From positions 1-34,957 of the IMG/VR virus record IMGVR_UViG_3300040856_000759: DNA of 34,957 nucleotides; one strand, given 5' to 3'. A program made the translations under genes and the position numbers. Below are positions 1,474 through 34,957 of the stretch, in pieces. Within the stretch, counting starts at the first letter, position 1. The number at the start of each line of letters is the position of its first letter. Source of the DNA: a virus. A model generated the notes under the pieces. It was not told the origin of the DNA. It did not search any database and was given only the letters and a program-made list of their open reading frames with translations.

Positions 1474-1493
1474 GTATTATCCTTTATTTTTAA

Positions 1494-2228: not shown

Positions 2229-3016
2229 AATCCTAATATCCTTTTTGCAGTACCGTCCTTCAATTCGTCAATATGAAATTGCCCATAGGCTAAATGACAT
2301 GCCCATTCATATACTTCGTCTTGATCAGGGTACCTTGGTTGTTCAATTTGTGTCAAATCATCAGATGCCAATTCCATAGCGGCATTTGGAGCCAGTGTAA
2401 ATACTGGTATACCGTATAATATGGCTTCAGTTGCCGCAATGCTTTGTAGTGTTACCACAGCAAACGCATTATCTAGTTCTTGGTAGATTGTTTTTTCAAT
2501 TCTTTCTTGTCTTTTGGCTTTTTCTCTAATTACAATAGGTCGATCGGTATGCTTTTTGATCATTTCTACTGTTTCTCGACGCCATTTTACCATATCAATG
2601 TTATAAAACCTTGCAGGCTTTTCACTTGGCATTACTACAAGAATATTTCTACCATCTCTCTTCCACGTAGGAATGCTAATGCCTAATTTTTCAAGTCTGT
2701 CCGAAGGTCTTTGTTCGACAATATCGTGTTGTAGGTCGTTTTTTACAATTCTATGAAATAATTTAAATCCGTTTGGGTTAATTGGACTTTTATAGTTACC
2801 TATATAACCACTATCCATGTAATAGAAGTCTCTTTGTTCTGCCCAACACTGTTGCATTAACTTGAATTTTAAAATTCCACGTAAAAAGATAGGTCCTGAT
2901 GTTTCATTAAAATTAAATTGATCAGAATGTGTTGGGGCAACACCAAAACTCTTGGCGAGCATGTTAATATATTCGTCGGAAGCGTTTTTACTTAGGAATG
3001 TTAAATTGTTTTCCAT
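2225..3016 (-). CDS. GT-B-like protein, paralogue of the 4932-5837 product
   Basis: 263 aa. Two blocks are shared with the 301-aa product encoded at 4932-5837. One is 'ILVVMPSEKP' followed by 'W...TVEMIKKHTDRPIVIR'. The other is a C-terminal 'NAFAVVTLQSIAATEAILYG' then IPVF. The second resembles the donor-binding half of capsule-synthesis GT-B transferases, where an invariant E sits in a helix after the 'A.V...S' strand. The C-terminal tail 'DELKDGTAKRIL' also matches 'EEISNGTAWEHL' in the paralogue. The N-terminal half is diverged and shorter. It overlaps the preceding gene by 16 nt and the next by 4 nt. I infer a glycosyltransferase, but an inactive or non-sugar role is possible. Confidence 0.65.
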   Translation of the reverse strand: MENNLTFLSKNASDEYINMLAKSFGVAPTHSDQFNFNETSGPIFLRGILKFKLMQQCWAEQRDFYYMDSGYIGNYKSPINPNGFKLFHRIVKNDLQHDIVEQRPSDRLEKLGISIPTWKRDGRNILVVMPSEKPARFYNIDMVKWRRETVEMIKKHTDRPIVIREKAKRQERIEKTIYQELDNAFAVVTLQSIAATEAILYGIPVFTLAPNAAMELASDDLTQIEQPRYPDQDEVYEWACHLAYGQFHIDELKDGTAKRILGF

Positions 3017-3693
3017 TGTTGACCTGTTTTGTTTGCAGTTTCAATCCACAAATCAGCATAGTCTACATCTTGACAGTTTGCAAACCACGGTCCACCTTCG
3101 GTAAAGTGAATTGCTTTTGGTTTTCCGTCTTGTGGTTCCTTGTACCAACCTTCTAACCAGTTCCACTCATGGCTGATTTGACCAATTTCTTTGTCTTTTA
3201 GCCAACTAAAGCGGTGCATGAACTTTCCAGTTTCTTTGTTTACCATGCTAGGTATAACTTGTTGGTTACTAGGATGTCCACAATTCCATAATACCATTGA
3301 ACTCCAGTTTTTTCTTGGATAAAGTGTCTGCTGTTTGCCGTCCATTTTGACACCTTCTTTGGGAGTATAGTCATGATGCACACACATTACTGCATATTTG
3401 TCATCACGTTGTGATAATAACTTATCAACATCGTCTAACCATAAAAAATCACAATCACAAAACAATGCCCAACCTTTATAATCCATTAGATAAGGAATTA
3501 AAAATCTTGTAAATGTAAATTCAGTGCTACTAAGCGAATCATGTGGCCTTGTGTATATGCCTTTGTCACGAAGTTCGTTAATTTTTAAATATTTTATGTC
3601 AATAGGTTCTTCAGTTGTGTGACGTAAACTGTATTCACAAACATCACTTGCAATTGGTTCACGGGAGTCATACCCAATAAAAATAGTGTTCAT
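3001..3693 (-). CDS. GT8-like glycosyltransferase
   Basis: 230 aa. It begins 'MNTIFIGYDSREPIASDVCE', typical of GT8-like family members in marine phages, followed by 'EFTFTRFLIPYL' and 'GWALFCDCDFLWLDDV', whose D80-C-D82 is a DxD metal/nucleotide-sugar site. A 'SSMVLWNCGHP' block and 'AIHFTEGGPWF' follow, in line with the acceptor side of such enzymes. It has no transmembrane segment. The start is fixed by a TAATG overlap with the upstream cytidylyltransferase-cupin gene. The sugar donor is unknown. The neighbouring fusion protein could supply a CDP-activated donor, which is inference from position only. Confidence 0.78.
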   Translation of the reverse strand: MNTIFIGYDSREPIASDVCEYSLRHTTEEPIDIKYLKINELRDKGIYTRPHDSLSSTEFTFTRFLIPYLMDYKGWALFCDCDFLWLDDVDKLLSQRDDKYAVMCVHHDYTPKEGVKMDGKQQTLYPRKNWSSMVLWNCGHPSNQQVIPSMVNKETGKFMHRFSWLKDKEIGQISHEWNWLEGWYKEPQDGKPKAIHFTEGGPWFANCQDVDYADLWIETANKTGQQWKTI

Positions 3694-4487
3694 TATTTTC
3701 CTTCTTTCCCGTAATTTTCATCAACGCCAACACGCTGTATGTCATCTTCAATACAATTATCACCAAATTGTATTTCAATAATTCTTAACGGTTTGTTAGT
3801 TTTGTTTTCTAGTTGGTGCCATTCACCTACATCTATATTTAAACTTTGGAATTTACTAAGTGTTGCCCACTCGTCTAAATCTGTACTACGATCTATAGTG
3901 TTTACCGTGGCAGTGCCTTCACTTACAAACCATAGTTCATTTCTGTGTTTGTGTTTTTGCATACTCAACCGTTTACCTGGGTCAACTGTAAGTTCTTTTA
4001 ACTTAACTTCATTGCCAACACCAAATAAAACTCTATAATAACCCCAAGGACGTTCAGTTTTAGGATATTTGTATTCTTCTAGTATCCAACTGCTTGAATT
4101 CTTTTTATCTTCACCACCTACACCAAACTTAAATGTTAATCTAGGATGAAATACTTCCATTTCTGGAATATTTTCTTTTGTTCTGTCACCGCCGTTAGCA
4201 AATATGTAATCTTCTTGTGGCCATTTAGACATAGTTTGTCTAATTGCATCTGATGCTGTGTTATCACTGTCATCGAACGCAATAACTTCGTCTACTACTG
4301 CTAATTCTTTAACTATTGCTACACGTTCCTCATAAGGCATAAACGGTTTGCCTTTTTTACGTGTTAACCACTCATCAGAATTGACTCCAACAACCAAATA
4401 ATCGCCTAATTCTTTAGCGGCTTTAAAGTAGGCAATGTGCCCTGAGTGTAAGGGATCAAACCCTCCAGTTACTATTACAACTTTCAT
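3693..4487 (-). CDS. cytidylyltransferase-like domain fused to a mannose-6-phosphate isomerase-type cupin
   Basis: 264 aa with two domains. Residues 1-135 form a nucleotidyltransferase of the TagD/RfaE C-terminal type: 'GGFDPLHSGH' at 8-17 contains the HxGH nucleotide site, and 'VGVNSDEW' follows. Residues about 140-260 form a cupin like the C-terminal domain of type II mannose-6-phosphate isomerases: 'RPWGYYRVL', then Q177, H179, H181 and E184 as likely metal ligands, with H224 in the second motif. Such enzymes make activated sugars or polyols and isomerise hexose phosphates; the true substrates are not visible. The start lies exactly 5 nt after AATAAATA, with no Shine-Dalgarno, like several virion genes here. 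That suggests a late, possibly leaderless transcript entering the downstream glycosyltransferases. Confidence 0.78.
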   Translation of the reverse strand: MKVVIVTGGFDPLHSGHIAYFKAAKELGDYLVVGVNSDEWLTRKKGKPFMPYEERVAIVKELAVVDEVIAFDDSDNTASDAIRQTMSKWPQEDYIFANGGDRTKENIPEMEVFHPRLTFKFGVGGEDKKNSSSWILEEYKYPKTERPWGYYRVLFGVGNEVKLKELTVDPGKRLSMQKHKHRNELWFVSEGTATVNTIDRSTDLDEWATLSKFQSLNIDVGEWHQLENKTNKPLRIIEIQFGDNCIEDDIQRVGVDENYGKEGK

Positions 4488-4492
4488 GTTAA

Positions 4493-4500
4493 TATTTATT
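4493..4500 (-). promoter_or_regulatory. late-promoter-like element AATAAATA before the cytidylyltransferase-cupin gene
   Basis: Reading on the minus strand, AATAAATA is followed by TTAAC and then ATG at 4487. It differs from the T4 late consensus TATAAATA by one base and overlaps the end of the upstream methyltransferase gene. The 5-nt gap puts the expected start of transcription at the A of the ATG. Confidence 0.55.
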
Positions 4501-4939
4501 TGTAGCAGTCTGCCAGTATGTATTTGTTGATTTTTGCTATTTTTACTGTTGAAAAGTGTTTATTCAATAAAGTAAAAAGTGTATTTTCATTATATACTTG
4601 TTTCCACCCACGAGATGTCTTTGGCGCCTTAATTGCTAAAGCCATAAAGATAAATCTGCTACAAGTTGGTTGTATAGTTTTTAAAAATTTATCTGGATCA
4701 TCTAAATACTCAAGGACTCCTAATACAAGTCCTACTTCTGCTGTATGTTTGATTGTAAATTCTTCGTTAAAATCAATTTGATAATCTGCTAAAGGGTTTA
4801 AGTCATATCCTACATAATCTTTAAAAGATAGATAGTTGCAAACAGATTTATCTCCGCAACCAAAATCTAAAACTGTTTTATTTTCTATATTGTAATCTTT
4901 TAAGAAACGATTTCTTTCACTCCACACGGGTTCAGTCAA
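4496..4939 (-). CDS. short class I SAM-dependent methyltransferase-like protein
   Basis: 147 aa. 'TVLDFGCGDKSVCNYL' near residues 22-37 is a motif I SAM-binding loop, 'YVGYDLNP' is motif II with the acidic residue that holds the ribose, and 'VGLVLGVLEYLDDP' fits the motif IV region. The protein is shorter than the usual 200-250 aa, and its second half lacks a clear substrate domain. It overlaps the upstream GT-B-like gene by 8 nt. Its place among sugar enzymes suggests methylation of a glycan or sugar nucleotide, but this is inference. A degenerate or non-catalytic protein is also possible. Confidence 0.65.
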   Translation of the reverse strand: MTEPVWSERNRFLKDYNIENKTVLDFGCGDKSVCNYLSFKDYVGYDLNPLADYQIDFNEEFTIKHTAEVGLVLGVLEYLDDPDKFLKTIQPTCSRFIFMALAIKAPKTSRGWKQVYNENTLFTLLNKHFSTVKIAKINKYILADCYK

Positions 4940-5837
4940 AGTAAACTCCTTTTAAATGTTCCCATGCTGTACCATTGGATATTTCTTCTTTAGTCCATAG
5001 CATATATCCAGCATCATAGCACCATTGTGTTCTATCAATATTAACATTAGGGTTTTCAATATTTTCTAATTTGTTTTGATTGCTAATATTCCAAACGACA
5101 CTTTCATCACTTAACGGAAATGTAGGAATTCCTTCTAGTGTACTCTCAACTAATGCGTTAGTGTTGTACCCAACAACCGCCCAAGCATTATTAAAATCTT
5201 CCTCTAATGATTTGCCTCCTTCTATCTTGTTTCTGTTTTTGAACACTGATGATATTTCTACATTATCTATAGTTGATTTAAATTGTAAGAAGTTTAGTTT
5301 CTTATGATGTACGTGAGGTCTAATTATTATTTTTCTGTCTGTATATTTTCTAATTGTTTCAATAGTGTATCTAATCCAGTGTTCATAAGTACCATATTTT
5401 TCGTATAAAGAATTAAGTGTGCTGTCACCGGGTTTTTGTAAACACACAAGAATGTTGTCACCAGGTGAACTCCAATCTTTAATTTCTAAATTTTGTAAAT
5501 CTTTAATTGTATTCCATCTATCTGCAGGACTATTCTCATTATTAAAATTGCCATTACGCAAAAAATGATTCCAACCTAACCTAAAATAACAACGAGAATC
5601 TGTAATAGGAAAACTGTTTTTTCTAAACAAATTACTTTCGCATACTAGTGTAGGTTTATTTTGTTCTTTAATATATTGATATGATTTTACATTTTTTGTT
5701 TTGCTTTTTTGTACATTAATTTGAAAAAACACATCAGCAGTTTCTTTTAACGAATTATCGTAATCTATTAGGTGCCAATTTGGTAAGTTGAACCCAATGT
5801 TAAAATAATTAATTTCTTTAAAAGATACAATATTCAT
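4932..5837 (-). CDS. GT-B-like glycosyltransferase, best-preserved member of a local three-gene family
   Basis: 301 aa. The middle holds 'GDNILVCLQKPGDSTLN', then 'YEHWIRYTIETIRKYTDRKI' and 'IIRPH'. The C-terminal half holds 'NNAWAVVGYNTNALVESTLE' and 'GIPTFPLSD', the layout of the donor-binding domain in capsule polysaccharide GT-B transferases (conserved E in the helix after the 'AVVG..S/T' strand). It aligns along much of its length with the products at 2225-3016 and 1-520. There is no signal peptide. It overlaps the FkbM gene by 4 nt and the short methyltransferase by 8 nt, so it is part of one coupled operon. The sugar is unknown. Confidence 0.7.
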   Translation of the reverse strand: MNIVSFKEINYFNIGFNLPNWHLIDYDNSLKETADVFFQINVQKSKTKNVKSYQYIKEQNKPTLVCESNLFRKNSFPITDSRCYFRLGWNHFLRNGNFNNENSPADRWNTIKDLQNLEIKDWSSPGDNILVCLQKPGDSTLNSLYEKYGTYEHWIRYTIETIRKYTDRKIIIRPHVHHKKLNFLQFKSTIDNVEISSVFKNRNKIEGGKSLEEDFNNAWAVVGYNTNALVESTLEGIPTFPLSDESVVWNISNQNKLENIENPNVNIDRTQWCYDAGYMLWTKEEISNGTAWEHLKGVYFD

Positions 5838-6493
5838 TTTATTGCTAAAAAGTTGCTCTCGTATACCGTATCTAGAATGCGTTCTTTTTGTGTAATATTA
5901 GAAAATACATCTCTCGGTATTTTATCTAGTGTAATAATACTGTGTATTGTAAAGTTATTTTCTGTAAAAAAGTCATACAAATCATTAGCAGTATAGTTGT
6001 ACTCTTGAAAATGTATTTGATTACATTCAAAATAAACTAGACTAGTTTTTTGTAAAGTTTTTACTGCGCCTTGTAGTGCAGGAAGTTCTGCACCTTCTAC
6101 ATCTATCTTAATAAAGTAAGGATCGATGTTATAACTATCAACGGTTTTACTTTGTAGTGTTAGTTCGTTGTAATTTTCTAATCTATAATGTTTTCTTAAT
6201 CCACTCCACCCTGCACGATCAAGATCTTGATAAAATGTTACACTACCTGGTTCATTAGATACCACATCATTGTATACAAATACATTATTATCTTTTCTAT
6301 AACGACGTTTTAGTCTATTAAAATGATCCGGCAACGCTTCAATACAATGAAATTCTGCATCAGGAAAATATGTTACATAAGGAACCAACCATTTACCTGT
6401 GCGTGATCCTATATCAATCATAGTCATGTCTGTAGGTGCATGAGTTGTAATATAATCGTATATTAATTTTGTATCTTGTTTTTTAAAGTTCAT
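5834..6493 (-). CDS. FkbM-family methyltransferase
   Basis: 219 aa. The SAM fold is seen at 'MTMIDIGSRTGKWLVPYV' (about 23-40), 'FHCIEALPDHFNRLKRRY' (motif II region) and the FkbM hallmark 'FIKIDVEGAELPALQGA' (about 127-143). FkbM enzymes O-methylate hydroxyl groups of sugars, polyketides and glycolipids in the cytoplasm. The length is normal for the family. Its place between GT25-like and GT-B-like genes, with 4-nt overlaps on both sides, suggests methylation of a glycan built by the neighbours. The acceptor is unknown. Confidence 0.85.
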   Translation of the reverse strand: MNFKKQDTKLIYDYITTHAPTDMTMIDIGSRTGKWLVPYVTYFPDAEFHCIEALPDHFNRLKRRYRKDNNVFVYNDVVSNEPGSVTFYQDLDRAGWSGLRKHYRLENYNELTLQSKTVDSYNIDPYFIKIDVEGAELPALQGAVKTLQKTSLVYFECNQIHFQEYNYTANDLYDFFTENNFTIHSIITLDKIPRDVFSNITQKERILDTVYESNFLAIK

Positions 6494-24639: not shown

Positions 24640-25401
24640 TTATCCAATAACAAACGATAATGGAGTAGAACCGTCAACATAGTTTGCCAAATCTTGTTCT
24701 AACTTCTCAATATCCGATTGTGCATCCGCTTTGAGTGCGTCTCCGTTTAATGAAGTACCTCCTTGCGGTGTTGAAATTGTAGCAAATTTGCCACGTGCTT
24801 CACCAATCATGTATTTGCACGTTGCAAGTGTATAATCTTTTAACCATTGTCCTGCATAAGGATCACTTAGTAAAATAAAGTCTGGTCGTTGATTGTACAC
24901 CGCTAACATAACTTCTTCATCGCCTCTAGGTCTTTGCATTATTGTTAGTTTGTGATTAACTGGATCAAATTTAAAGTTAATAAAAGAGCCAAACATTTTA
25001 CCTACAAGTTCTTGATATCCAGCAAAGGCCATATAAGTTGCCAACCCGCCCATTTGCGTAGAACTTAATAGATAGGTGTTTGTGTATGCAAGGTTGAATG
25101 GTTCAAATATTGTACCACCTTGACCACCACCGCTTCTTGACCCAATACTTCTGCGAAACACTTCTTTGACACTTTGTATTTCATTTGGAAGTATGTAATC
25201 GTTAGTGTCTTCTTTTAATTCTAAAAATGCGTAAGATTCTTCTACAGCATTTTCTGCTCTTTGTCTATATTTGCCAAGTGCTTTCTCTAGTGCTACTTCG
25301 TAGTGATCAACATCTAGTTCAACGTCAATCATACCGTCACCTAGCAACTTCTTGACGTAATTAAACAGTTTTGTTTTTGCGGTATCTAATTGTGTGCTCA
25401 T
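24640..25401 (-). CDS. gp13: gp13 neck protein
   Basis: 253 aa; T4 gp13 has 309. With gp14 it forms the neck that seals the filled head and accepts the tail. Features that match marine-phage gp13 are the opening 'TAKTKLFNYVKKLLGDGMID', 'DHYEVALEKALGKYRQRAEN', 'FLELKEDTNDYILPNEIQSV' and 'QWLKDYTLATCKYMIGEARG' followed by 'DIEKLEQDLANY'. It faces away from gp14, which starts 43 nt away on the other strand; in T4 the two are co-directional. It starts 5 nt after AATAAATA with no Shine-Dalgarno. Confidence 0.75.
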   Translation of the reverse strand: MSTQLDTAKTKLFNYVKKLLGDGMIDVELDVDHYEVALEKALGKYRQRAENAVEESYAFLELKEDTNDYILPNEIQSVKEVFRRSIGSRSGGGQGGTIFEPFNLAYTNTYLLSSTQMGGLATYMAFAGYQELVGKMFGSFINFKFDPVNHKLTIMQRPRGDEEVMLAVYNQRPDFILLSDPYAGQWLKDYTLATCKYMIGEARGKFATISTPQGGTSLNGDALKADAQSDIEKLEQDLANYVDGSTPLSFVIG

Positions 25402-25443: not shown

Positions 25444-26562
25444 ATGCCCAGATTAAGTTTATACAAACCGGAGAAATCCGCTGATTATCGCTTTATAGAC
25501 AAGACTGTATATGAAGCATTTCAAATCGGTGGAACAGACATATTTGTTCACAAATATGAGGGTCCTGTTGAGCCAGGTGTAGGAACGCCAACTCAACCCA
25601 AAGGAGTAAGTGATATTCCTGAGACTAAAATACAGGATTTATTATTTTTAGAAAATCGTGATAGAAAATATTCAGACGATGTTTATACATTGCGTGGTAT
25701 TTACAATGTACAAGATTTAGATTTTGACTTATCACAGTTTGGAATGTTTTTACAAAACGATACCGTGTTTATTACATTCCATCTAAACAGAAGTGTCGAG
25801 TCGATTGGTAGAAAACTTATGAGTGGCGATGTATTAGAACTACCGCACTTGGCAGATGACTATGCACTAAATGATTTCCAAGTATCACTAAAACGATTTT
25901 ATGTAATTGAAGATATAAGTCGTCCTAGCGAAGGCTTTTCACAAACTTGGTATCCACACTTGTTAAGAGCAAAATGCAAACCAATTATGGACAGCCAAGA
26001 ATTTAAAGATATTTTTGATAAAGAGTCAGGTGAAGAAGGCAAGAACTTACGTGATGTGCTTTCTACATATGAAAAAGAAATGCAAATTAATGAACAAGTA
26101 ATTGCACAAGCAGAGGCCGATGCACCAAAAACAGGATATGATACAAACCAATATTTTGTTGTACCTACTGATGATGCAGGTGATGTTAATATTGTCGATG
26201 ACGGTTCAAACACTCCAACTCTACAAACACCAAGTGGAAACTATTATATTGCATATGGTGGCGGGGACGGATTACCAGCGAATGGTTCACCATATACATT
26301 TGGTACTTCTTATCCTAGCAGTCCTGATAAAGGTGCATATCATTTAAGAACTGACTATTATCCTAATAGACTGTTTAGATATGATGGCAATCATTGGATT
26401 AAAGTTGATGACGGTGCAAGAATGAGTCTTACTAACACTGTACAAAATAGTGTTGTTAATGAATTTACAAACAATACAGAAACATATACAAATAGAAAAG
26501 GCAACACTCAGCCAGAGAAACAGCCTTTATCAACTGCATTGAAACCTGAGGCAGACGCTTAA
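25444..26562 (+). CDS. gp14: gp14-like neck protein with an added C-terminal module
   Basis: 372 aa from ATG 25444; T4 gp14 has 256. 'FIDKTVYEAFQIGGTDIFVH' leads to 'LFLENRDRKYSDDVYTLRGI', 'GMFLQNDTVFITFHLN', 'LMSGDVLELPHLADDYALND' and 'YPHLLRAKCKPIMDSQEFKD', a pattern that matches gp14 of marine T4-like phages. The identification is strengthened by gp15 following directly. Residues about 290-345 are an extension with 'DKGAYHLRTDYYPNRLFRYD' then 'GNHWIKV', the same type of module found in gp18. A TTG frame at 25390 is ruled out because it would run through the promoter. Stop and gp15 start overlap as TAATG. Confidence 0.72.
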   Translation: MPRLSLYKPEKSADYRFIDKTVYEAFQIGGTDIFVHKYEGPVEPGVGTPTQPKGVSDIPETKIQDLLFLENRDRKYSDDVYTLRGIYNVQDLDFDLSQFGMFLQNDTVFITFHLNRSVESIGRKLMSGDVLELPHLADDYALNDFQVSLKRFYVIEDISRPSEGFSQTWYPHLLRAKCKPIMDSQEFKDIFDKESGEEGKNLRDVLSTYEKEMQINEQVIAQAEADAPKTGYDTNQYFVVPTDDAGDVNIVDDGSNTPTLQTPSGNYYIAYGGGDGLPANGSPYTFGTSYPSSPDKGAYHLRTDYYPNRLFRYDGNHWIKVDDGARMSLTNTVQNSVVNEFTNNTETYTNRKGNTQPEKQPLSTALKPEADA

Positions 26563-27983
26563 TGGAACATTTTTACGACGGACAAATTAGAAGATTTGTT
26601 ACACAATTCATTCGTGCATTTAGTAACTTTAGTTACAAAGACAATGCTGGTACTTTAAGAAAAGTGCCTACTAGTTACGGAAACTTAACACGTCAAGTAG
26701 CACACATTATAAGAGATAATTCAGAAAACAAAGTTATTAGTGCACCTCGTATTGCTTGTTATATTACAGGGTTAGAGTATGCAAGAGAACGTGTACAAAG
26801 TCCAACACACGTTGATAAAGTTCATATTAGACATAGAGAATATGATGATGCAACAGGAACTTATAAAGACTTGCAAGGCGTCGGTAACACTGTAGAGCGT
26901 TTAATGCCTGTACCATTTACACTAAGAATGAAAGCAGATATTTGGTCAACTAATACAGATCAAAAATTACAAATTATGGAACAAATACTTGTTCTATATA
27001 ATCCTGCACTAGAAATACAAACAACAAACAACTATGTTGACTGGACTTCACTTAGTTTAATTGAACTAGCAAGTGTAAACTATTCAACTAGAAGTATTCC
27101 GCAAGGAACTGAAACAGAAATTGACATAGGCGAAATGGAATTTACAATGCCTATATGGATTACACCTCCGGCTAAAGTTAAAAAACTTGGTGTTATTGAA
27201 AAAATTATTATGAATATTTTCGATGAAAGCGGAAGTATCAGTGACGGAATTATTGATGCAACTATACCAACAGCAACAGTTGTTAAGTCACCAGGCGATT
27301 ATAAATTACTAGTTCTAAATAACACAGCACGTTTGTTACATGCACATGAAGGTGTAGATGAAAGTAAAACTGGAACGTTTACTACAACCGGAGATCCGAT
27401 AAGTTGGTTTAAATTACTAGATCAATATCCTGGTAAGTTTACTGCTGGAACAAGCACTATTAGACTTACAAAAAGTGACGGCAATGAAGTTGTAGCAACA
27501 GTTAGTCTGAATCCAACAGACGATACACAAATGGTATTGTCTATTGATAGTGATACTGTACCTGCAAATACAACACTTGTAGACAGTGTAAACAGTAGAG
27601 GAACCGTAGATGCTATTATTGATCCTACAACTTTTGCACCTGATTATACCACAATAACAGCAGGAACAAGGTATTTGATACTTAATGATATAAATCCAAA
27701 TGTAAAAGGCGACAGTTCTGATGCTAATGCTAATGCTTGGCAAAACGGAGATGGTTCAATATTCAAAGCAAACCAAAACGATATTATTACTTGGAACGGT
27801 AATAGTTGGGAAAAAACACTAGATGCAAGTGGCTCAAACGACGGAGCCGATTCTGCTTCATCACCAGACCCAGTGTACATAACTAATACATATACTGGAA
27901 TTCAGTACAAGTGGGAGAACGGATCTTGGCTGAAAAGTTTTGAAGGTGAATACGAGGCAGATGAATGGAGACTAGTCCTGTAA
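26562..27983 (+). CDS. gp15: gp15 tail completion/sheath stabiliser with a C-terminal extension
   Basis: 473 aa; T4 gp15 has 272. gp15 caps the tail and joins it to the neck. The start 'MEHFYDGQIRRFVTQFIRAF' then 'LRKVPTSYGNLTRQ' mirrors T4 'YFYNSSFRRYATLMGDLFSN' and 'IRVPITYASKEHF'. 'APRIACYITGLEYA' and 'QIMEQILVLYNPALEIQTTN' also correspond, up to 'MPIWITPPAKVKK' near 215. Residues about 230-473 are added: an 'LLVLNNTARLLHAHEG' domain with 'YPGKFTAGTSTIRLTKSDGN', then 'DIITWNGNSWEKTLD' and 'GIQYKWENGSWLKSF' modules that recall those in gp14 and gp18. The Nudix start lies inside its last codons. Confidence 0.85.
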   Translation: MEHFYDGQIRRFVTQFIRAFSNFSYKDNAGTLRKVPTSYGNLTRQVAHIIRDNSENKVISAPRIACYITGLEYARERVQSPTHVDKVHIRHREYDDATGTYKDLQGVGNTVERLMPVPFTLRMKADIWSTNTDQKLQIMEQILVLYNPALEIQTTNNYVDWTSLSLIELASVNYSTRSIPQGTETEIDIGEMEFTMPIWITPPAKVKKLGVIEKIIMNIFDESGSISDGIIDATIPTATVVKSPGDYKLLVLNNTARLLHAHEGVDESKTGTFTTTGDPISWFKLLDQYPGKFTAGTSTIRLTKSDGNEVVATVSLNPTDDTQMVLSIDSDTVPANTTLVDSVNSRGTVDAIIDPTTFAPDYTTITAGTRYLILNDINPNVKGDSSDANANAWQNGDGSIFKANQNDIITWNGNSWEKTLDASGSNDGADSASSPDPVYITNTYTGIQYKWENGSWLKSFEGEYEADEWRLVL

Positions 27984-28411
27984 AAGACATAATTTGTAGT
28001 GGTGCATTATTTTTTGCAAAAAGCACCGGCAAATTTTTATTTCTACAAAGAACAAAACATAAAACAGCAGGCCAATGGGGCCTAGTTGGTGGTATGAGTG
28101 AAGAAGGTGAAACACCTTGGAAAGCACTCGAACGTGAAATCAAAGAAGAAATTGGTGAAACTCCAAAATTTGAAAAAATTATTCCATTAGAATTATTCAC
28201 ATCCAAAGATCAAAAATTCTTTTTTCATACGTATGTTGTAATTGTTGAAAAAGAGTTTATTCCTGTACTAAATGAAGAACATAGCGGTTATGCTTGGACA
28301 AACGCAAAAGATTATCCAAAACCGTTGCACGTTGGATTACGTAATACCCTTCAAAATAAAGTAAATCAAACCAAGATTGACACAATAGTAGAAATAGTAA
28401 AAAGTTTATGA
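27965..28411 (+). CDS. Nudix hydrolase
   Basis: 148 aa. A complete Nudix box lies at 43-65: G43, five residues, E49, seven residues, then R57-E58-I-K-E61-E62-I-G64 and E65 where a hydrophobic residue is usual. Nudix enzymes cleave nucleoside diphosphates linked to another group, such as nucleotide sugars, NADH, ADP-ribose or RNA caps. The substrate here is unknown. The gene overlaps the end of gp15 by 19 nt and the start of hldE by 4 nt (ATGA), so it sits between structural and heptose genes; a nucleotide-sugar role is possible but not shown. Confidence 0.88.
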   Translation: METSPVKDIICSGALFFAKSTGKFLFLQRTKHKTAGQWGLVGGMSEEGETPWKALEREIKEEIGETPKFEKIIPLELFTSKDQKFFFHTYVVIVEKEFIPVLNEEHSGYAWTNAKDYPKPLHVGLRNTLQNKVNQTKIDTIVEIVKSL

Positions 28412-29646
28412 TTAAAGTAATTGGCGATATAATGCTTGATCGTTGGATTCTCGGCTCAGCAGATAGAATGAGTCCAGAAGCACCCGTACCTGTACTAAAA
28501 GAACAATCACAAGAATACAGTGTAGGTGGTGCAGGAAATCTTGCTTTAAACCTTGCAAATTTAAGCGTAGACGTTAGTTTACATGGTGCAGTAGGTAGTG
28601 ACAAAGAAGGTTATAAAGTCATTGAATTACTAAAAGACTGTAATACACTGACCAGTAATGTTTCATTTGATAATGAATTAACAACAACAAAAACTAGGCT
28701 TGTAGGTCAAGGTGGTCAACATATCCTACGTTGGGATAGAGAAACACACTATCAAGGTGACACAAAGAAATCACTTAATGTTAATAATAATGATGTAGTT
28801 GTAGTAAGTGATTACAATAAAGGTGTTATTGATCTAGAACTAATGAACAGTTTAAAAGATGTAAAAGTGTTTGTAGATCCAAAACAAATGCCACAAATGT
28901 ACAAAGATTGTTTTTTAGTAAAACCTAATATGTCTGAATATAACAGTTGGTTTGGAGAGTTTGACATTGCAAAAGCAAAGCAACATCTAGTTCAATTTAA
29001 CTGGGAATGGTTGGTTGTTACTGATGGTGCAAACGGTGTGCATGTTATAAACAAAAAAGATCACTGGCATTTTAAAGAAGATGTTAGAGAAGTTGCAGAT
29101 GTTACTGGTGCAGGAGATACTTTTTTAGCAGTGTTAGTATACGGCCATGTTATTAAAAACATGAATATTCAAGATAGTTGTAAATTAGCCTGTTATGCAA
29201 GTGCTAGAAATGTTGAAAAAAGAGGAGTACATCCTGTAAGTTTTGAAGACTTGTATAGAGGCGTTGTATGGACAAATGGTGTGTTTGATATACTACACCC
29301 AGGACATTTAGAACTACTAAAGTATGCTAAAAATTTAGGACAAAAACTAATTGTAGGTATTAATGATGACGAAAGTGTAAGGCGTTTAAAGGGCGATGGA
29401 CGACCTGTAAATGATTTTGTAACACGAAAACGTCAATTAGAAATGCTACCGTGGGTAGATGAAGTTGTTGTATTTGCAGAAGATACGCCTCAAGAAATTT
29501 TAGAAAATATTAGACCTGATATTATTGTAAAAGGCGGTGACTATACAAGAGAAACAACAGTTGGTCATGAATTAGCAGAAGTAAAAATATTTCCTACAAT
29601 TCAAGGTCATAGCACAACAGATATTATAGGAAGGATCAAAGAATGA
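28408..29646 (+). CDS. hldE: HldE: bifunctional heptose-7-phosphate kinase / heptose-1-phosphate adenylyltransferase
   Basis: 412 aa; E. coli HldE has 477. It carries out two steps of ADP-heptose synthesis: phosphorylation of D-glycero-D-manno-heptose 7-phosphate at C1, and later adenylylation of heptose 1-phosphate. Kinase (about 1-283): 'VIGDIMLDRW', 'RMSPEAPVPVLK', 'VGGAGNLALNLA' and the GAGD site at 234-237 with D237 as base. Adenylyltransferase (about 284-412): 'VVWTNGVFDILHPGHLELLK' with HPGH at 297-300, 'RRLKGDGRPVN', 'EDTPQEIL' and 'VKGGDY', all as in E. coli. The kinase half is about 30 residues shorter than in E. coli. It overlaps its neighbours by 4 nt. Confidence 0.95.
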   Translation: MIKVIGDIMLDRWILGSADRMSPEAPVPVLKEQSQEYSVGGAGNLALNLANLSVDVSLHGAVGSDKEGYKVIELLKDCNTLTSNVSFDNELTTTKTRLVGQGGQHILRWDRETHYQGDTKKSLNVNNNDVVVVSDYNKGVIDLELMNSLKDVKVFVDPKQMPQMYKDCFLVKPNMSEYNSWFGEFDIAKAKQHLVQFNWEWLVVTDGANGVHVINKKDHWHFKEDVREVADVTGAGDTFLAVLVYGHVIKNMNIQDSCKLACYASARNVEKRGVHPVSFEDLYRGVVWTNGVFDILHPGHLELLKYAKNLGQKLIVGINDDESVRRLKGDGRPVNDFVTRKRQLEMLPWVDEVVVFAEDTPQEILENIRPDIIVKGGDYTRETTVGHELAEVKIFPTIQGHSTTDIIGRIKE

Positions 29647-30134
29647 TTGTCGAAGCCTATTTGCCTAACTGGAAAGACTACGAGGAAATTTATAATGAAT
29701 GGTCAGAAAAGAACAAAGAAAATTACAACACAGATAGTACTACTGTAGGATTTGATATTGGACAACCAGGTATACCTAATGCGTTTGATTGGAAAATAAA
29801 AGAAGACTACAACAAAGCAATACAAAGTATTATACCTAATTGGAATTTTGGAAAGATATTAAACATCTGGGGTGTATATTATAGAGATTTTGGATATCAA
29901 ACATTACATAGACATAACCAAGATAGTGTTGCTACAATTTTATATTTTGATACACAACCCGAAGAAGACAAGTTGACAACATTAAACGGTTTAATGTATA
30001 CTATATATGATGATGTTCATAGAACATTTAAGCCTGAACCAGGCAAATTAATTTTGATGAACTGGGACGTATGGCACGGAGTATATCCTGCTAAAGAACC
30101 TAGAAGAAGTTTTATGGTGGACTTTGCTACATGA
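29643..30134 (+). CDS. 2OG-Fe(II) oxygenase-like protein between hldE and hldD
   Basis: 163 aa. 'YQTLHRHNQDSVATILYFDT' gives candidate iron ligands H89 or H91 and D94, 'NWDVWHGVYPAKEPRRSFMV' gives H145 and R154/R155, and 'FKPEPGKLILMN' is the strand before the distal histidine. This is the layout of small phage 2OG-Fe(II) oxygenases, which hydroxylate unknown targets. The spacing of the first motif (HxHxxD) departs from the simple HxD form, so activity is less certain than for the 202-aa protein at 9995-10603. It overlaps hldE and hldD by 4 nt each; modification of a sugar or lipid from the same pathway is a possible role. Confidence 0.65.
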   Translation: MIVEAYLPNWKDYEEIYNEWSEKNKENYNTDSTTVGFDIGQPGIPNAFDWKIKEDYNKAIQSIIPNWNFGKILNIWGVYYRDFGYQTLHRHNQDSVATILYFDTQPEEDKLTTLNGLMYTIYDDVHRTFKPEPGKLILMNWDVWHGVYPAKEPRRSFMVDFAT

Positions 30135-30967
30135 ATATATTAATGACAGGAGACGCTGGGTTCATCGGTCAAAATCTAGCATTTTATCTAGTTGACCGCG
30201 GACATAGTATTGAAGGCTTTGATTGGAAGGGACCTGACGTTTTACCTAATCCAGAAAAATTTGATTGGGTAATACACCTAGGTGCTATTAGTTCTACAAC
30301 AGAAACAGATGTGGAAAAAGTGCTTAAACAAAATTACGAATTCACAATGAATCTAATTCAAATATGTGATAAGTTTGGTGTTAACATGCAAATAGCAAGT
30401 TCTGCTAGTGTGTATGGTCCAGGTTTAGACGGATACAAAGAAGATAGTAAATGTTTACCACAAAGTCCTTATGCATGGAGCAAGTATCTTATTGACAGAT
30501 TTTTAGTTGAAGCAGGTATCTACAATAAAGAGTTTAACATGAACATTCAAGCGTTTAGGTACTTTAATGTATATGGGCCAAAAGAAGAACACAAAGGTGA
30601 CCAAGCAAGTCCTGTACACAAATTTACTGAACAAGCCAAAAAAGATAAAGTGATAAAAGTTTTTGAAAACAGCGACAACTATGTTAGAGATTTTATTTGT
30701 GTAAGTGATGTATGTAGAGTACACGAAAAAATGCTTTCACAAGATACTAGCGGAATATTTAATGTTGGTACAGGAACAACTACAAGTTTCCAAAGTGTTG
30801 CTGATACTATTGCCAGTAAGTTTGGGGCAACTATTGAAACTATTCCCATGCCAGAAAAATTAAAAGGACAATATCAAGAATATACTTGTGCAGACTTGAC
30901 AAATTTAAATAAACATTGTAAAATAGAAGACTATATGACAGTTAAGGAATACATTAATGCCTACTAA
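30131..30967 (+). CDS. hldD: HldD: ADP-L-glycero-D-manno-heptose 6-epimerase
   Basis: 278 aa; E. coli HldD has 310. It converts ADP-D-glycero-D-manno-heptose to the L-glycero form used by LPS heptosyltransferases. It is an extended short-chain dehydrogenase: 'GDAGFIGQN' (7-15) binds the cofactor, Y114-x3-K118 is the catalytic pair, and K155 lies in 'FRYFNVYGPKEEHKGDQAS', which equals the HldD signature 'YGPREGHKGSMAS' holding the second catalytic lysine. 'SGIFNVGTGTTTSFQSVAD' and 'MPEKLKGQYQEYTCADLTNL' match E. coli almost word for word. Compared with E. coli it lacks about 30 residues near position 40, and it keeps all key residues. Confidence 0.93.
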   Translation: MNILMTGDAGFIGQNLAFYLVDRGHSIEGFDWKGPDVLPNPEKFDWVIHLGAISSTTETDVEKVLKQNYEFTMNLIQICDKFGVNMQIASSASVYGPGLDGYKEDSKCLPQSPYAWSKYLIDRFLVEAGIYNKEFNMNIQAFRYFNVYGPKEEHKGDQASPVHKFTEQAKKDKVIKVFENSDNYVRDFICVSDVCRVHEKMLSQDTSGIFNVGTGTTTSFQSVADTIASKFGATIETIPMPEKLKGQYQEYTCADLTNLNKHCKIEDYMTVKEYINAY

Positions 30968-31346
30968 TAGACTAAGTGGAAAAGTAGATAAAGGTTGGGG
31001 ATATGAACTAATCTTTGCTACTAATGACAAATACTGCGGGAAAATACTTTTCTTTGAAAAGAAAGGTGCAAAATTTTCAATGCATTTTCATAAAGAAAAA
31101 GATGAAACTTGGTTTATTAACAATGGTAAATTTTTACTTCGTTATGTGGATACAACAAAAGCAGTAATGTTTACAAAAGAATTAGGACCTGGAGATGTTT
31201 GGAGAAATCCTCCACTAATGCCACACCAATTAGAAGCACTAGAAGACAACTCTAGTCTTACAGAAGTAAGTACACCAGATAGTGTAGAAGATAATTATAG
31301 AATTATTCCTGGTGATTCACAAAAAGAAGAAGATAAAACTACTTAG
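30957..31346 (+). CDS. single-domain cupin, mannose-6-phosphate isomerase-like
   Basis: 129 aa. 'KGWGYELIFATNDKYCGKIL' is typical of sugar-cluster cupins. Metal ligands are probably H43, H45 and E50 ('SMHFHKEKDETWF'), and H90 in 'PPLMPHQLEAL'. Such cupins isomerise or epimerise sugar phosphates or nucleotide sugars; a bare cupin of this size may also only bind sugar. The start overlaps the end of hldD by 11 nt. It is the last gene of the operon and its end overlaps by 8 nt the end of the 41-aa minus-strand gene. The related cupin domain in the 3693-4487 fusion shows that the phage holds two of them. Confidence 0.8.
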   Translation: MPTNRLSGKVDKGWGYELIFATNDKYCGKILFFEKKGAKFSMHFHKEKDETWFINNGKFLLRYVDTTKAVMFTKELGPGDVWRNPPLMPHQLEALEDNSSLTEVSTPDSVEDNYRIIPGDSQKEEDKTT

Positions 31347-31464
31347 TCTTATTTTTAATCCAACGATAAGCCGCATAGGCTAATAATAGTACAACAATAG
31401 TACCAATACCATCTACCCACGATGTTTCGTTCATTGCTCTAATTAGATCTGCTGTGATTTCCAT
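31339..31464 (-). CDS. 41-aa single-span membrane protein
   Basis: The frame runs from ATG 31464, overlapping the stop of the large virion gene as TAATG, to TAG at 31339. The N-terminus is polar ('MEITADLIRAMNETSWVDGI'), followed by one hydrophobic helix 'GTIVVLLLAYAAYRWI' and a basic tail 'KNKTK'. Charge suggests the C-terminus stays inside the cell. I do not recognise the family; small one-span proteins in phages include holins, antiholins and superinfection-exclusion proteins. The coupled start and the single hydrophobic segment argue that it is real. Confidence 0.65.
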   Translation of the reverse strand: MEITADLIRAMNETSWVDGIGTIVVLLLAYAAYRWIKNKTK

Positions 31465-34400
31465 TATGCTTGTGCCTCTGACCAACGTAGAATAATTTCC
31501 CCTGTAACGTCAGTACCGGATGTTTTATACACGTTCAGTGCCAACACGTCTGGACCATTAGGGAATGTACCTCTTCCACCTAGTGTGGTATTGGTTAATT
31601 CTTTAATGAATGATAAATCTAGCGTTGATCTTTCTCCCGGTCTAGCAACAAAACCAAAGATTGTTTCACCCGGCTGTGCATACGGTGGTTGTGTAAAGTC
31701 AAACGTTACTGTATCTGTGCCTTTGGTAAGTGTACTAGCATCAGTACTCTGAGAAAACTGTACTTTATAGTATTCTGTTGAACCATAACTTTCTAATGAT
31801 ACACTTGATACTGATGTATTTGCAGGAAATCTAGTTTCACTTGATGCAACTGACGTACCTTGGGTAGCACCGGCTGATTCCCAACTTGCTTTTGTAAACC
31901 AAATTTCTGAAGTTGGTGGATTTTTAAATGTTTTTGTAAATGTTAAGTTAACATTACCAATTGGTACGTTTCTTAAACCGTTACTTGAAACATAAATTGG
32001 TCTTAGTGTTCCTGAACCAGCACTACCTGTTGTCCAACTTCCAACCTGTGTAATTGTTGTTCCTGATGAAAAGTTTATTCCATCGCCAACCTCTGTACCT
32101 AATTCAAATAAATCTGTGTTTGCTTGATAAAAGGCTTCTGTAACAAAGAATAAATTTCTACCTTGTCTAATAGTATTATCCCAATAATCGTTATTACTTC
32201 TATATCCTCTATCAATAGCAACAATCGTTTCTGTAATTGGTGCAAGTGTAGTTGCGGCCCTTGTTAGTGTAACCGCACCTGAGTTCCAGTTAACCGATCC
32301 ACCTGGTGCAATCTGTGCGAAACTTGGCTGACCACCCTGTGCAACACCTGTTAATCCTTGCCAACCAATATCGTCTGGGTTAGCAGGATAGTTTTGTGGG
32401 TTTAAAACTCCTGTTACAACAATGTTACCTGTTTGCCCACTAGCATTAGGTTCTGTGGTAATTTCCAAACCTTCTAGTAGCAACTGTGCTCTATTAATTA
32501 ATTCTCTTTCACCTAAATCACCTACAAGTGCATTACTAACACTTGGTGCAAGTCTAATTAGGAATGATGTAAATGGTGTAGTACCAAATGCAACACCGGT
32601 CGCCGCGTAACTAAACAAGAAACCTCTATCACTGTCAAAGCCGCCGTCTGTAATAAACGAAGAACCCCAGTGTTGGATAATTGGTGTTGTAGTATTACTT
32701 ACAAGTACTAGTCCGGTTTTAGCCGCGTGTGTCGCCGTAGGTCCTGCTGTGTATGTTCTAGTTGCACCTGAAGCAAACTGCTGTAATGGTGCTTCACGTG
32801 TACAGCCTGTTAGAGTATTTCCTGTTATTCCAGTATACGTAACAAGTTCGTTGTCAATGTAAATTGTACCACCATCATCTGGAAAATCACTTGCATCTTC
32901 TAGTTCAATTGATGCATCAGCAACTCCAATATTTGATTTTAGTTTACCAATAGCACTTTCATTAATAACTTCATAACGCACAGGTTGGTTACCAGTACGC
33001 ATATACGCTTCTGTGTTAATGTTTGAGTTACGCATTCTGTGTGCCATGATAAAGTTACCATCACTACCTCTGAACATGTAATCAATAAAACCAGCACCAT
33101 ACCATGAATATTGAATCCCGATCATCTGCATGTATGTTACATCAAGATCGTATCCTGATTTGCCTGTTCCATCACAGTTATCTCTGTTCCACTGTCCTTG
33201 ACGTGCTTTTTTATCAACAACCTTGGCCATCTTAGCACCTGAAATATTAGTTACACCTCTAAAGTCTGGTGAAACGTTAATGCTTGACTGGTTATTAACT
33301 TTAGTAACAACGTGTGTCATACCACGTATAACAACTCTGTCACCTACACTTAATTGATCTTGGAATCTTGTATTTGAACCAGTAATTTCGTTTTGATCTC
33401 TGTATGCTGTACATGTTCCCGAAAGTTGGAAAGTTGCACTACGTTGTACACAATACAAGTGCTTACCATTGTATTCAAAGAAAATACCATTTTGATCATC
33501 ATATGTACCTGCTCTTACCACAGACCCGTGCCATGTACGTGTTTGTACTTGCGGGTTATCTGTAAGAGTTGCAGTAGTATCACCTAGTATATATTTTGCT
33601 CTTATTGTAAATTGACGTTCATCAACAATACTATCTACATTATAATTTCCATCGTAACCTGGTGTTACAATGCCTTTTAATCTAATGCCAGCACCAACTT
33701 GTAACCCATGATCTACATCGTCAGTAGTTACTGTAATAACACTACCAACTGCTGTACCGCCTGCTGTAATACTTAATAAGTCATAACTTGGTGCAAATAA
33801 AGCACCAGTTGTGTACATAATACCTTTACCTGACTGGTATCTAATATATTTTTTACTTTGACGTATTGCTTGTGCACCATGTACAGGAGAACCAGTACCT
33901 AATTGTACACCACCGTCAAATGGTCTATGCAAGAAGAATGCATCTGGTCTTGGATAAACTGTACCTTGTATAGGTTCATCATTGTTTGTACCAGTTGAAA
34001 TATTACCTACCGATAATGCTTGATATGATATTTGATCTAAAGCACTTACAGATGTTGCTATAAATGATCCTGCCGCTAGATAGTGATTGTTTGTTCCGTT
34101 GTCAGAAGCAACACTAACAATAAATGTTGACCCTGGTACTAATCCGTGTGGACTACCAAATGATACACTAATTGTTGCAAGTGCATCAAAATCGATTGTT
34201 GTGCCTTGTGGCAATAATCCAGTCGTCGATTCACTCATACTTACAGTACTATACACTGTTAATTGGCTACCCTGTGCCGCTGATCCTGAATTTGACGTTG
34301 TTAAAATTTCGCCATTTGTATCTACGCTGTCGACAGTAACAGTTAAATCATTTGCAGGACTTTGACCACCTAAGTTTTGTCCTGATAACACTATTCTATT

Positions 34401-34957
34401 TCCTACTTTATATCCAGTACCTGCTGTTGCAACAGCGTTAATTGTATACACTCCGAGATTTCTGTTAACATCAAAACTTGCTCCATTACCGCTTGGAGAT
34501 TCGTTAAATCCTTCAACGCCTGTAAATTCTCCATTTCCTGAAACAGCATTACCACTGCCAGTAACATTAATAATACCACCAATACTATCAACAGCACCTG
34601 CGACTGTCATAGTAGCATCGTTATCTGGACTAGTACCACCTAGGTCACTACCAAGAATTACAATCTCATCACCTGTTGCATAACCTTCACCACCGTCAAC
34701 TACTGTTCCAGTATAGTTTCCTCCACTAGTTGCAATATTAAAAATTGCTCCAGTACCAACTAAATTATCACCACTTTGGCTTTCATAAGTTTGACTGTTT
34801 AAACCAGTACCTGACTCAGTAAACGCTGTAATTGTTCCGTTTACATCGACAGCAGTAACAGTTAGTGTTAAATCATTTGCAGGACTTGTACCGCCTAGTT
34901 GATCACCGCTAATTGTAAGTGTATCTGTAGTAGCAAAGTTTACACCACCGTCTTGTA
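31464..34957 (-). CDS. very large repeat-bearing virion (tail/baseplate-associated) protein, N-terminus cut by the window edge
   Basis: At least 1163 aa; the frame stays open past the internal Met at 34610 up to the right edge, so the start is outside. The visible N-terminal part holds three copies of an 85-90-residue unit with 'LGG.SPANDLT.TV'. The middle has 'DAFFLHRPFDGGVQLGTGSP' and 'IRQSKKYIRYQSGKGIMYTT', a pattern I recall from large structural proteins of cyanophages and pelagiphages. The C-terminal 400 residues are beta-rich and Ser/Thr/Gly-rich, as in fibres. It is probably part of the tail-side host-contact apparatus; the exact role is unknown. The stop overlaps the start of the 41-aa gene. 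Confidence 0.82.
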   Translation of the reverse strand, partial: QDGGVNFATTDTLTISGDQLGGTSPANDLTLTVTAVDVNGTITAFTESGTGLNSQTYESQSGDNLVGTGAIFNIATSGGNYTGTVVDGGEGYATGDEIVILGSDLGGTSPDNDATMTVAGAVDSIGGIINVTGSGNAVSGNGEFTGVEGFNESPSGNGASFDVNRNLGVYTINAVATAGTGYKVGNRIVLSGQNLGGQSPANDLTVTVDSVDTNGEILTTSNSGSAAQGSQLTVYSTVSMSESTTGLLPQGTTIDFDALATISVSFGSPHGLVPGSTFIVSVASDNGTNNHYLAAGSFIATSVSALDQISYQALSVGNISTGTNNDEPIQGTVYPRPDAFFLHRPFDGGVQLGTGSPVHGAQAIRQSKKYIRYQSGKGIMYTTGALFAPSYDLLSITAGGTAVGSVITVTTDDVDHGLQVGAGIRLKGIVTPGYDGNYNVDSIVDERQFTIRAKYILGDTTATLTDNPQVQTRTWHGSVVRAGTYDDQNGIFFEYNGKHLYCVQRSATFQLSGTCTAYRDQNEITGSNTRFQDQLSVGDRVVIRGMTHVVTKVNNQSSINVSPDFRGVTNISGAKMAKVVDKKARQGQWNRDNCDGTGKSGYDLDVTYMQMIGIQYSWYGAGFIDYMFRGSDGNFIMAHRMRNSNINTEAYMRTGNQPVRYEVINESAIGKLKSNIGVADASIELEDASDFPDDGGTIYIDNELVTYTGITGNTLTGCTREAPLQQFASGATRTYTAGPTATHAAKTGLVLVSNTTTPIIQHWGSSFITDGGFDSDRGFLFSYAATGVAFGTTPFTSFLIRLAPSVSNALVGDLGERELINRAQLLLEGLEITTEPNASGQTGNIVVTGVLNPQNYPANPDDIGWQGLTGVAQGGQPSFAQIAPGGSVNWNSGAVTLTRAATTLAPITETIVAIDRGYRSNNDYWDNTIRQGRNLFFVTEAFYQANTDLFELGTEVGDGINFSSGTTITQVGSWTTGSAGSGTLRPIYVSSNGLRNVPIGNVNLTFTKTFKNPPTSEIWFTKASWESAGATQGTSVASSETRFPANTSVSSVSLESYGSTEYYKVQFSQSTDASTLTKGTDTVTFDFTQPPYAQPGETIFGFVARPGERSTLDLSFIKELTNTTLGGRGTFPNGPDVLALNVYKTSGTDVTGEIILRWSEAQA
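34304..34957 (-). repeat. three tandem repeats of about 85-90 codons in the large virion gene
   Basis: The 'LGG' codons of the three copies lie near 34895, 34640 and 34370, giving periods of 255 and 270 nt. Each unit contains 'GD/N.I.[IL].G..LGG.SP.ND.T.TV' followed by 'NG.I' or 'GG.I'. The first copy is cut by the right edge, so more copies may lie outside. Confidence 0.85.

Follow-up and report, generated by a model that had tools for sequence, protein, structure and literature searches.

Phage genes for ADP-heptose synthesis behind a neck-gene block, with a linked GT9-like protein in relatives, suggest possible heptosylation of virion proteins

The virus record IMGVR_UViG_3300040856_000759 of IMG/VR is a single contig of 34,957 bases, all of which was analyzed here (the window). 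It encodes HldE and HldD, enzymes of ADP-heptose synthesis, directly behind phage neck genes. We propose that phage-made ADP-heptose feeds a phage transferase that acts on virion (tail) proteins, a reading to which we give an even chance of being right. The transferase would be GT9x, our name for a heptosyltransferase-like protein with a GT9 fold encoded by relatives of the window phage. Sequence and model comparisons give good support to four points: HldE and HldD are what their names say, their cassette is conserved, GT9x has the stated fold and position, and it co-occurs with HldE and HldD.

Profile searches identified HldE as a PfkB kinase domain and an adenylyltransferase domain in a single protein, a putative heptose-7-phosphate kinase at about residues 2 to 283 followed by a heptose-1-phosphate adenylyltransferase at residues 284 to 411. 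For both proteins the HldE and HldD models were the top NCBIfam matches by a wide margin (E-values for HldE of 9.5e-98 with PRK11316, 1.2e-63 with rfaE_dom_I, and 1e-43 with rfaE_dom_II). Alignments to 4e84 and 5x9q showed intact GAGDT and DILHxGH motifs in HldE, and HldD aligned to 1eq2 (2.6e-48) with intact YxxxK and HKG segments (YAWSK and EEHKGDQAS) and a shortened N-terminal half. We take all four motifs to be catalytic. The initial annotation had named both enzymes and described their key residues as intact, and here profiles and alignments agree. Judged by sequence, the phage enzymes very probably carry out the chemistry as far as ADP-heptose. The two-domain architecture and motifs of HldE and the catalytic segments of HldD resemble the ADP-L-glycero-beta-D-manno-heptose pathway, as does a GmhB-type partner in some phage relatives; the phage version is unlike that pathway in being phage-borne, in its constant cupin, in scores that fall under the equivalog cut-offs, and in that GmhA was not found.

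In the window, HldE and HldD belong to a run of seven plus-strand genes with head-to-tail overlaps of 1, 19, 4, 4, 4, and 11 nt in gene order. The run and the genes on either side are as follows:

24640..25401, minus strand, gp13-like head-tail adaptor Ad2 (PHROG 211, 6.2e-33), a neighboring anchor outside the operon
25444..26562, plus strand, gp14-like virion structural protein (PHROG 11591, 1.5e-87), named gp14 by position only
26562..27983, plus strand, gp15 tail sheath stabilizer (PF16724, 4.6e-27)
27965..28411, plus strand, Nudix hydrolase (PF00293, 2.8e-18)
28408..29646, plus strand, HldE (PfkB, 3.9e-37, and CTP_transf_like, 9.8e-20)
29643..30134, plus strand, 2-oxoglutarate (2OG)-Fe(II) oxygenase-like protein (PF13759, 1.6e-4, sub-threshold; PHROG 81, 1.9e-7)
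30131..30967, plus strand, HldD (Epimerase, 3.8e-32; TIGR02197, 1.3e-72, under cut-off)
30957..31346, plus strand, metal-type cupin (PF00190, 4.1e-6; PHROG 7851)
31464..34957, minus strand, large virion structural protein, truncated by the window end (PHROG 5838, 4.1e-215)

The open frame of the gp14-like gene begins at 25390, the ATG at 25444 being the more likely start, and the sole PHROG match of its product is 11591, "virion structural protein." The open reading frame (ORF) coordinates agree with the run of 1- to 19-nt overlaps noted previously, from which a late, translationally coupled message had been predicted. Late expression is unsupported, as the T4-type late box TATAAATA is not in excess, with 3 occurrences in the window versus 4.28 expected, all on the minus strand.

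To place this arrangement among other phages, we used three samples of IMG/VR loci: the best 80 loci from 411 stretches that encode an HldE relative, the best 80 from 375 that encode a GT9x relative, and, chosen independently of HldE, the best 80 of 203 relatives of gp13. The window phage itself belongs to the T4-like group and probably to the jumbo phages, since its terminase has Pseudomonas PA5oct-type phages (about 285 kb) as top matches, at 56%, and the largest contigs among the relatives reach 267,783 bases. Across the HldE loci, the order gp14-gp15-Nudix-HldE-(2OG)-HldD-(extra gene)-cupin, facing the large virion gene, recurs while HldE identity drops from 100 to 58%, indicating that the arrangement is more than chance. 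The gp14-gp15-hldE-hldD order is thus conserved in HldE-positive relatives, Nudix included. Exceptions are five loci (L043, L044, L045, L048, and L050) in which the gene picker placed a small opposite-strand ORF at the Nudix position and two (L049 and L054) in which it picked no Nudix gene. The 2OG gene is optional, going unseen in the loci of many relatives, and a cupin follows HldD in all 45 distinct HldD sequences for which at least 1.5 kb of flank is visible.

The Nudix gene had been grouped with the sugar module, but it is present in 20 loci (17 contigs, by contig names) from which HldE, HldD, and the cupin are all absent, which rules it out as a member of the sugar pathway; one further locus, L250, lacked all of the marker genes. 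Because Nudix stays where the cassette is absent, it is part of the neck block, and the conserved heptose cassette is HldE-HldD-cupin. Of the gp13 loci, 35 extend 600 nt or more past a visible Nudix gene, and HldE is present in 17 of these and absent from 18. Annotation of nine of the 18 found the slot occupied by halogenase-like (e7 family), 2OG, tail-type, or unnamed genes. Since other genes occupy the slot in HldE-negative phages, the slot behind the neck genes is a variable cargo site. The "fusion" of neck and sugar genes that was originally described is real in HldE-positive loci and represents one occupant of this site.

Several side observations concern the slot. One unnamed gene in the HldE-negative loci resembles a glycosyltransferase by eye. 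Halogenase-like genes stand behind gp14-gp15-Nudix at L316 3464-4960, L302 4571-6085, and L094 5538-7025, two such genes lie ahead of HldE in L049, L051, and L053, and in cyanophage S-SSM7 a halogenase-like gene, called tryptophan halogenase in the record, adjoins HldE.

The initial annotation saw no recognizable heptosyltransferase. None is present in the window, but relatives carry a GT9-like gene beyond the point where the window contig stops. When 25 longer HldE-positive records were searched with the GT9 profile PF01075, 14 gave a match (10 above the cut-off), and a protein search found GT9x in 20 of the 25, the other five ending before the site. In relatives, 8.9 to 15.6 kb separate HldE from the nearer GT9x; in L009 (HldE 81% identical), the closest relative of the window that has both genes, the distance is 15 kb. 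The window contig stops inside the virion gene, short of the GT9x site, and GT9x is presumably present in the window phage itself.

In relatives, the block past the virion gene consists of the tail-type genes TFc1 and TFc3, a carbamoyltransferase, GT9x, and genes for phrog_9740-family and Gly/Cys-rich proteins, the latter usually three in number; it often includes an unnamed protein that is SGNH-like by eye and has no Pfam match. The carbamoyltransferase beside GT9x is NodU-type (PF16861, 2.2e-59; PF02543, 5.4e-29) and is found in 77 of the 80 GT9x loci, and Gly/Cys-rich proteins (median length of 251 residues, 19% Gly, and 10% Cys among 229 proteins) in 68 of the 80. Two Gly/Cys-rich queries returned 3 and 8 records, both limited by low-complexity filtering, and queries with phrog_9740-family proteins returned 11 records (all S-CAM1 or S-CAM3) in one case and 9 loci in another; neither was used for counts. 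In some relatives, a gene that resembles a subtilisin-like (S8) peptidase by eye lies between tail-type genes (L011 18962-20827, minus strand).

An AlphaFold2 (AF2) model built from 36 GT9x sequences (predicted local distance difference test score, 82) matched the folds of 3tov (Z, 21.9), WaaF (1psw; Z, 20.4), TibC (Z, 18.3), and WaaC (Z, 17.9 to 18.1), with Z scores of at most 11.8 for other enzyme families. Only two NCBIfam models, both heptosyltransferases, are matched by GT9x: heptsyl_trn_III by 14 of the 36 members and RfaQ by 5 of the 36. A C-terminal CDSxxxH motif is kept across the family, and a GT9x profile search against the sequences of solved structures gave nothing significant. 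ADP-heptose is the probable donor of GT9x. With the TibC/AAH autotransporter heptosyltransferases it shares a GT9-type fold, TibC being among the top fold matches; unlike them, it is set among phage tail genes, is linked to a carbamoyltransferase, and, by eye, lacks an Asp at the position corresponding to Asp13 of WaaC. Five GT9x loci were found in cellular genomes by a scan that needs exact peptide patterns, so that absence elsewhere is weak evidence. All five are on metagenome-assembled genome contigs, three of them titled TaraRedSea, and are likely mis-binned phage, because the flanking genes are those of the phage block.

We then counted how often GT9x and the heptose enzymes occur together. 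Among the records of 50 of the best 80 GT9x loci, 26 carry HldE (at least 45% identity), and HldD is present in exactly those 26; two more have a 34% match to the adenylyl domain only, and some of the 26 have a weaker second adenylyl match. For the gp13 sample, 28 records, several of them fragments, were searched, and GT9x was found in 5 of 5 HldE-positive records and in 0 of the 23 others, of which 14 show the slot without HldE and nine do not show the slot. Among annotated phages, a tblastn search with HldE against 50,697 records matched 97, none at 60% identity or more, and GT9x matched 55. All 23 of the records that match GT9x with at least 36% identity also match HldE, and 22 match HldD; these are exclusively cyanophage or marine single-cell records, many of them near-copies, and the count is therefore not independent. 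The other 32 are phages of Vibrio (31) and Aeromonas (1), with identities of 24 to 29%. Of three that were opened, two, both from Vibrio, have the GT9x homologue beside tail genes and the third has only hypothetical proteins around it; HldE was found in 0 of these 3, against 5 of 5 cyanophages searched alongside them.

In the cyanophage S-CAM1 (host, Synechococcus WH7803), the two gene sets form one run: a tail fiber gene, two small genes, three Gly/Cys-rich proteins, a phrog_9740-family protein, GT9x, and the carbamoyltransferase, continuing with the adenylyl and kinase parts of HldE, an HAD-like protein, the cupin, HldD (on the opposite strand), a tail fiber gene, and a virion gene. S-SSM7 and Sf-FS3 resemble S-CAM1 in this run, with additional genes in between, and continue as far as gp13; the block of P-SSM2 is also like that of S-CAM1. 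These are the "lipopolysaccharide (LPS)" clusters described for P-SSM2, S-SM2, and S-SSM7 (PMC3037559), where HldE (T4-GC 304 and 305), the cupin (307), and HldD (308) are the same genes as in the window, and where P-SSM2 and S-SSM7 also carry GT9x (302) and the carbamoyltransferase (303). Unlike the window, these clusters have a split HldE and an additional short HAD-like protein. The papers name them LPS or heptose-LPS genes (PMC3037559; SynMITS9220M01, PMC7378029), and GT9x is annotated as a "hypothetical protein." Sullivan et al. (2010) state that it is not known whether the cyanophage "LPS genes" are functional or stuffer DNA (PMC3037559).

The cyanophages bear on the acceptor of the heptose. 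A review describes the LPS of marine Synechococcus WH8102 and CC9311 as lacking both heptose and 3-deoxy-D-manno-octulosonic acid (Kdo) (PMC4515613). WH8102 is the host of Sf-FS3, and an LPS-core acceptor is therefore unlikely in this pair. Together with the position of the gene and the precedent of TibC, which is reported to glycosylate protein with ADP-heptose (PMC4358343), the heptose-free host LPS points to a virion protein as the acceptor. The main alternative, rather unlikely in our estimate, is that ADP-heptose and GT9x modify the host surface with heptose, on LPS or on some other glycan, and thereby exclude later phages. This is how such clusters have been interpreted in print for cyanophages and pelagiphages, as surface changes directed against other phages (PMC7824862, PMC7029224), and GT9 enzymes are classically LPS heptosyltransferases, in keeping with the heptsyl_trn_III and RfaQ matches. 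Besides the Synechococcus LPS, what argues against it is that GT9x lies inside structural blocks in those loci of jumbo phages and cyanophages that were examined, that the two Vibrio phages have the distant homologue beside tail genes, and that annotation brought no flippase, ligase, or lipid-linked step to notice, although no search was aimed at these. Of the three uses for ADP-heptose suggested at the outset, glycosylation of the virion fits best, rebuilding of host LPS is weakened by the cyanophages, and feeding of the sugar cluster on the minus strand of the window found no support in the analyses run.

Heptosylation of virion proteins would proceed as follows. Heptose 7-phosphate would come from host GmhA, or possibly from the action of the phage cupin, and would be phosphorylated by phage HldE. 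After a host or phage phosphatase had taken off one phosphate, HldE would adenylylate the product and HldD would epimerize it. GT9x would then move the heptose onto a virion protein, most likely an adjacent Gly/Cys-rich, phrog_9740, or tail protein, and the neighboring NodU-type carbamoyltransferase would carbamoylate the heptosylated product. The enzyme activities and the carbamoylation are what we infer from the genes present.

Candidates for the two steps outside HldE and HldD were sought among the relatives. GmhB was earlier noted as not seen, but a GmhB-type phosphatase is encoded in 6 of 50 HldE-positive records (in one of the six spread over two frames) and adjoins the cassette in the four records opened for it; the window contig itself is too short to show whether its phage has the gene. 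The best NCBIfam models of the protein are GmhB, under the cut-off. Distinct from it is a short HAD-like protein (phrog_1238) in the three cyanophages searched and two large jumbo contigs; the search total of 8 of 33 records includes three weak matches at GmhB-type genes. We do not accept its PHROG label of "phosphoheptose isomerase": one member (L093 6745-7083) has a lone weak match to the EcbF/BcbF phosphatases, at 26.3 bits and far under the cut-off, two further members have no NCBIfam match, and by eye phrog_1238 reads as an HAD protein. GmhA annotations in cyanophages may be wrong, given this weak phosphatase match.

The PHROG label of the cupin (phrog_7851), "cysteine dioxygenase," was not accepted either, as the fold search returned a generic metal cupin. 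The HxH...E and second His positions do not vary across an alignment of 25 sequences. Nearest folds to the AF2 model include KdgF, D-lyxose isomerase, and phosphoglucose and phosphomannose isomerases; quercetinase and oxalate decarboxylase are found there too. With such unrelated metal cupins among the nearest folds, the model is compatible with an isomerase and does not establish one; the cupin is a candidate sugar-phosphate isomerase. That it replaces GmhA is a guess, prompted by its constant company with HldD and by the failure to find GmhA.

A number of findings weigh against the proposed heptosylation of virion proteins. HldE and HldD are missing from 24 of the 50 GT9x records, 14 of which show the site with the cassette absent, while in 10 the site is cut off. 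As these 14 records show, GT9x can persist without phage-made donor. On the GT9x tree, 13 HldE-negative records form two groups (12 records, and L182 alone), which fits two cassette losses. Six HldE-positive entries (P-TIM68, S-SM2, S-T4, Sf-CH5, Sf-CH8, and AG-345-E08) are not among the 55 annotated records that match GT9x. Bit scores for HldE are 327.8, 215.2, and 148.6, against curated cut-offs of 521, 345, and 181.5 (PRK11316, rfaE_dom_I, and rfaE_dom_II, respectively), and HldD scores 244.6 bits against 274.6 for TIGR02197. As for GT9x, PF01075 reaches an E-value of 0.001 in just those 14 of 25 records, and at least 17 of the 36 members have no NCBIfam match. Three chloroplast NDH subunits share its fold (Z, 17.9 to 18.4), so that the fold is no proof of activity. 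At the position that, aligned by eye, resembles Asp13 of WaaC, which we take to be the catalytic residue, GT9x has Arg17 (invariant in one alignment and present in 98% of 55 rows in another). GmhA (PF13580) was found in 0 of 25 and 0 of 37 records of relatives, many of them fragments, while 9 of 14 control genomes were positive. Its absence, already noted for the window, extends to these relatives and leaves the pathway dependent on the host or on the candidate cupin isomerase.

One clade of GT9x loci (L178, L181, L192, L202, and others) lacks the HldE cassette and has GT9x-SGNH-carbamoyltransferase in reverse orientation relative to its tail genes.

Some of these findings would also fit enzymes that act on a related sugar other than an L,D-heptose, or ADP-heptose synthesis that supplements the host pool. 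The scores under the equivalog cut-offs, the shortened N-terminal half of HldD, and the GT9x-positive records without HldE favor this explanation; the alignment of the catalytic segments with solved heptose enzymes and the GmhB-type phosphatase accompanying the cassette in 6 of 50 HldE-positive records make it improbable. Least probable of all is a pathway in which HldE, HldD, the carbamoyltransferase, and the halogenase-like and 2OG enzymes make a diffusible sugar-derived metabolite: a secondary metabolite or capsule decoration has been proposed for the S-SSM6a cluster (PMC7824862), and tryptophan-halogenase-like genes adjoin HldE in S-SSM7 and three IMG/VR loci and halogenase-like genes occupy the slot elsewhere, but those three are the only IMG/VR HldE loci with this family beside HldE, the S-CAM1 stretch lacks it, and the constant partners are the carbamoyltransferase and structural genes.

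Among bacterial proteins, autotransporter adhesins are known to be heptosylated. We found no paper on heptosylation of phage virions in the open-access literature; heptosylated phage tail proteins, if real, would offer phages a new means of protecting or tuning receptor binding. The link, in two distant phage groups, is between heptose synthesis and a GT9-fold enzyme and carbamoyltransferase among tail genes. For the cyanophage "LPS genes," which are without established function, the connection to heptose synthesis offers a concrete test on cultured phages. A more far-reaching version, which we consider unlikely, is that these phages hold a nearly self-contained O-carbamoyl-heptosylation pathway for their own tail adhesins, with the cupin as a nonhomologous replacement of GmhA that would allow heptosylated virions to form even in hosts whose LPS has no heptose, such as marine cyanobacteria, and that phages of ADP-heptose-making hosts drop HldE-HldD-cupin and keep the transferase and carbamoyltransferase.

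Elsewhere in the window, the minus-strand sugar cluster (520-6493) encodes a polysaccharide pyruvyl transferase-like protein, FkbM-type and other methyltransferases, and several unnamed ORFs. Within it, the ORF at 3693-4487 (minus strand) fuses a nucleotidyltransferase domain of the HldE C-terminal family (phrog_7878) to a cupin (PF01050, with a weak match to phrog_7851), the second link between a nucleotidyltransferase and a cupin in this one window.

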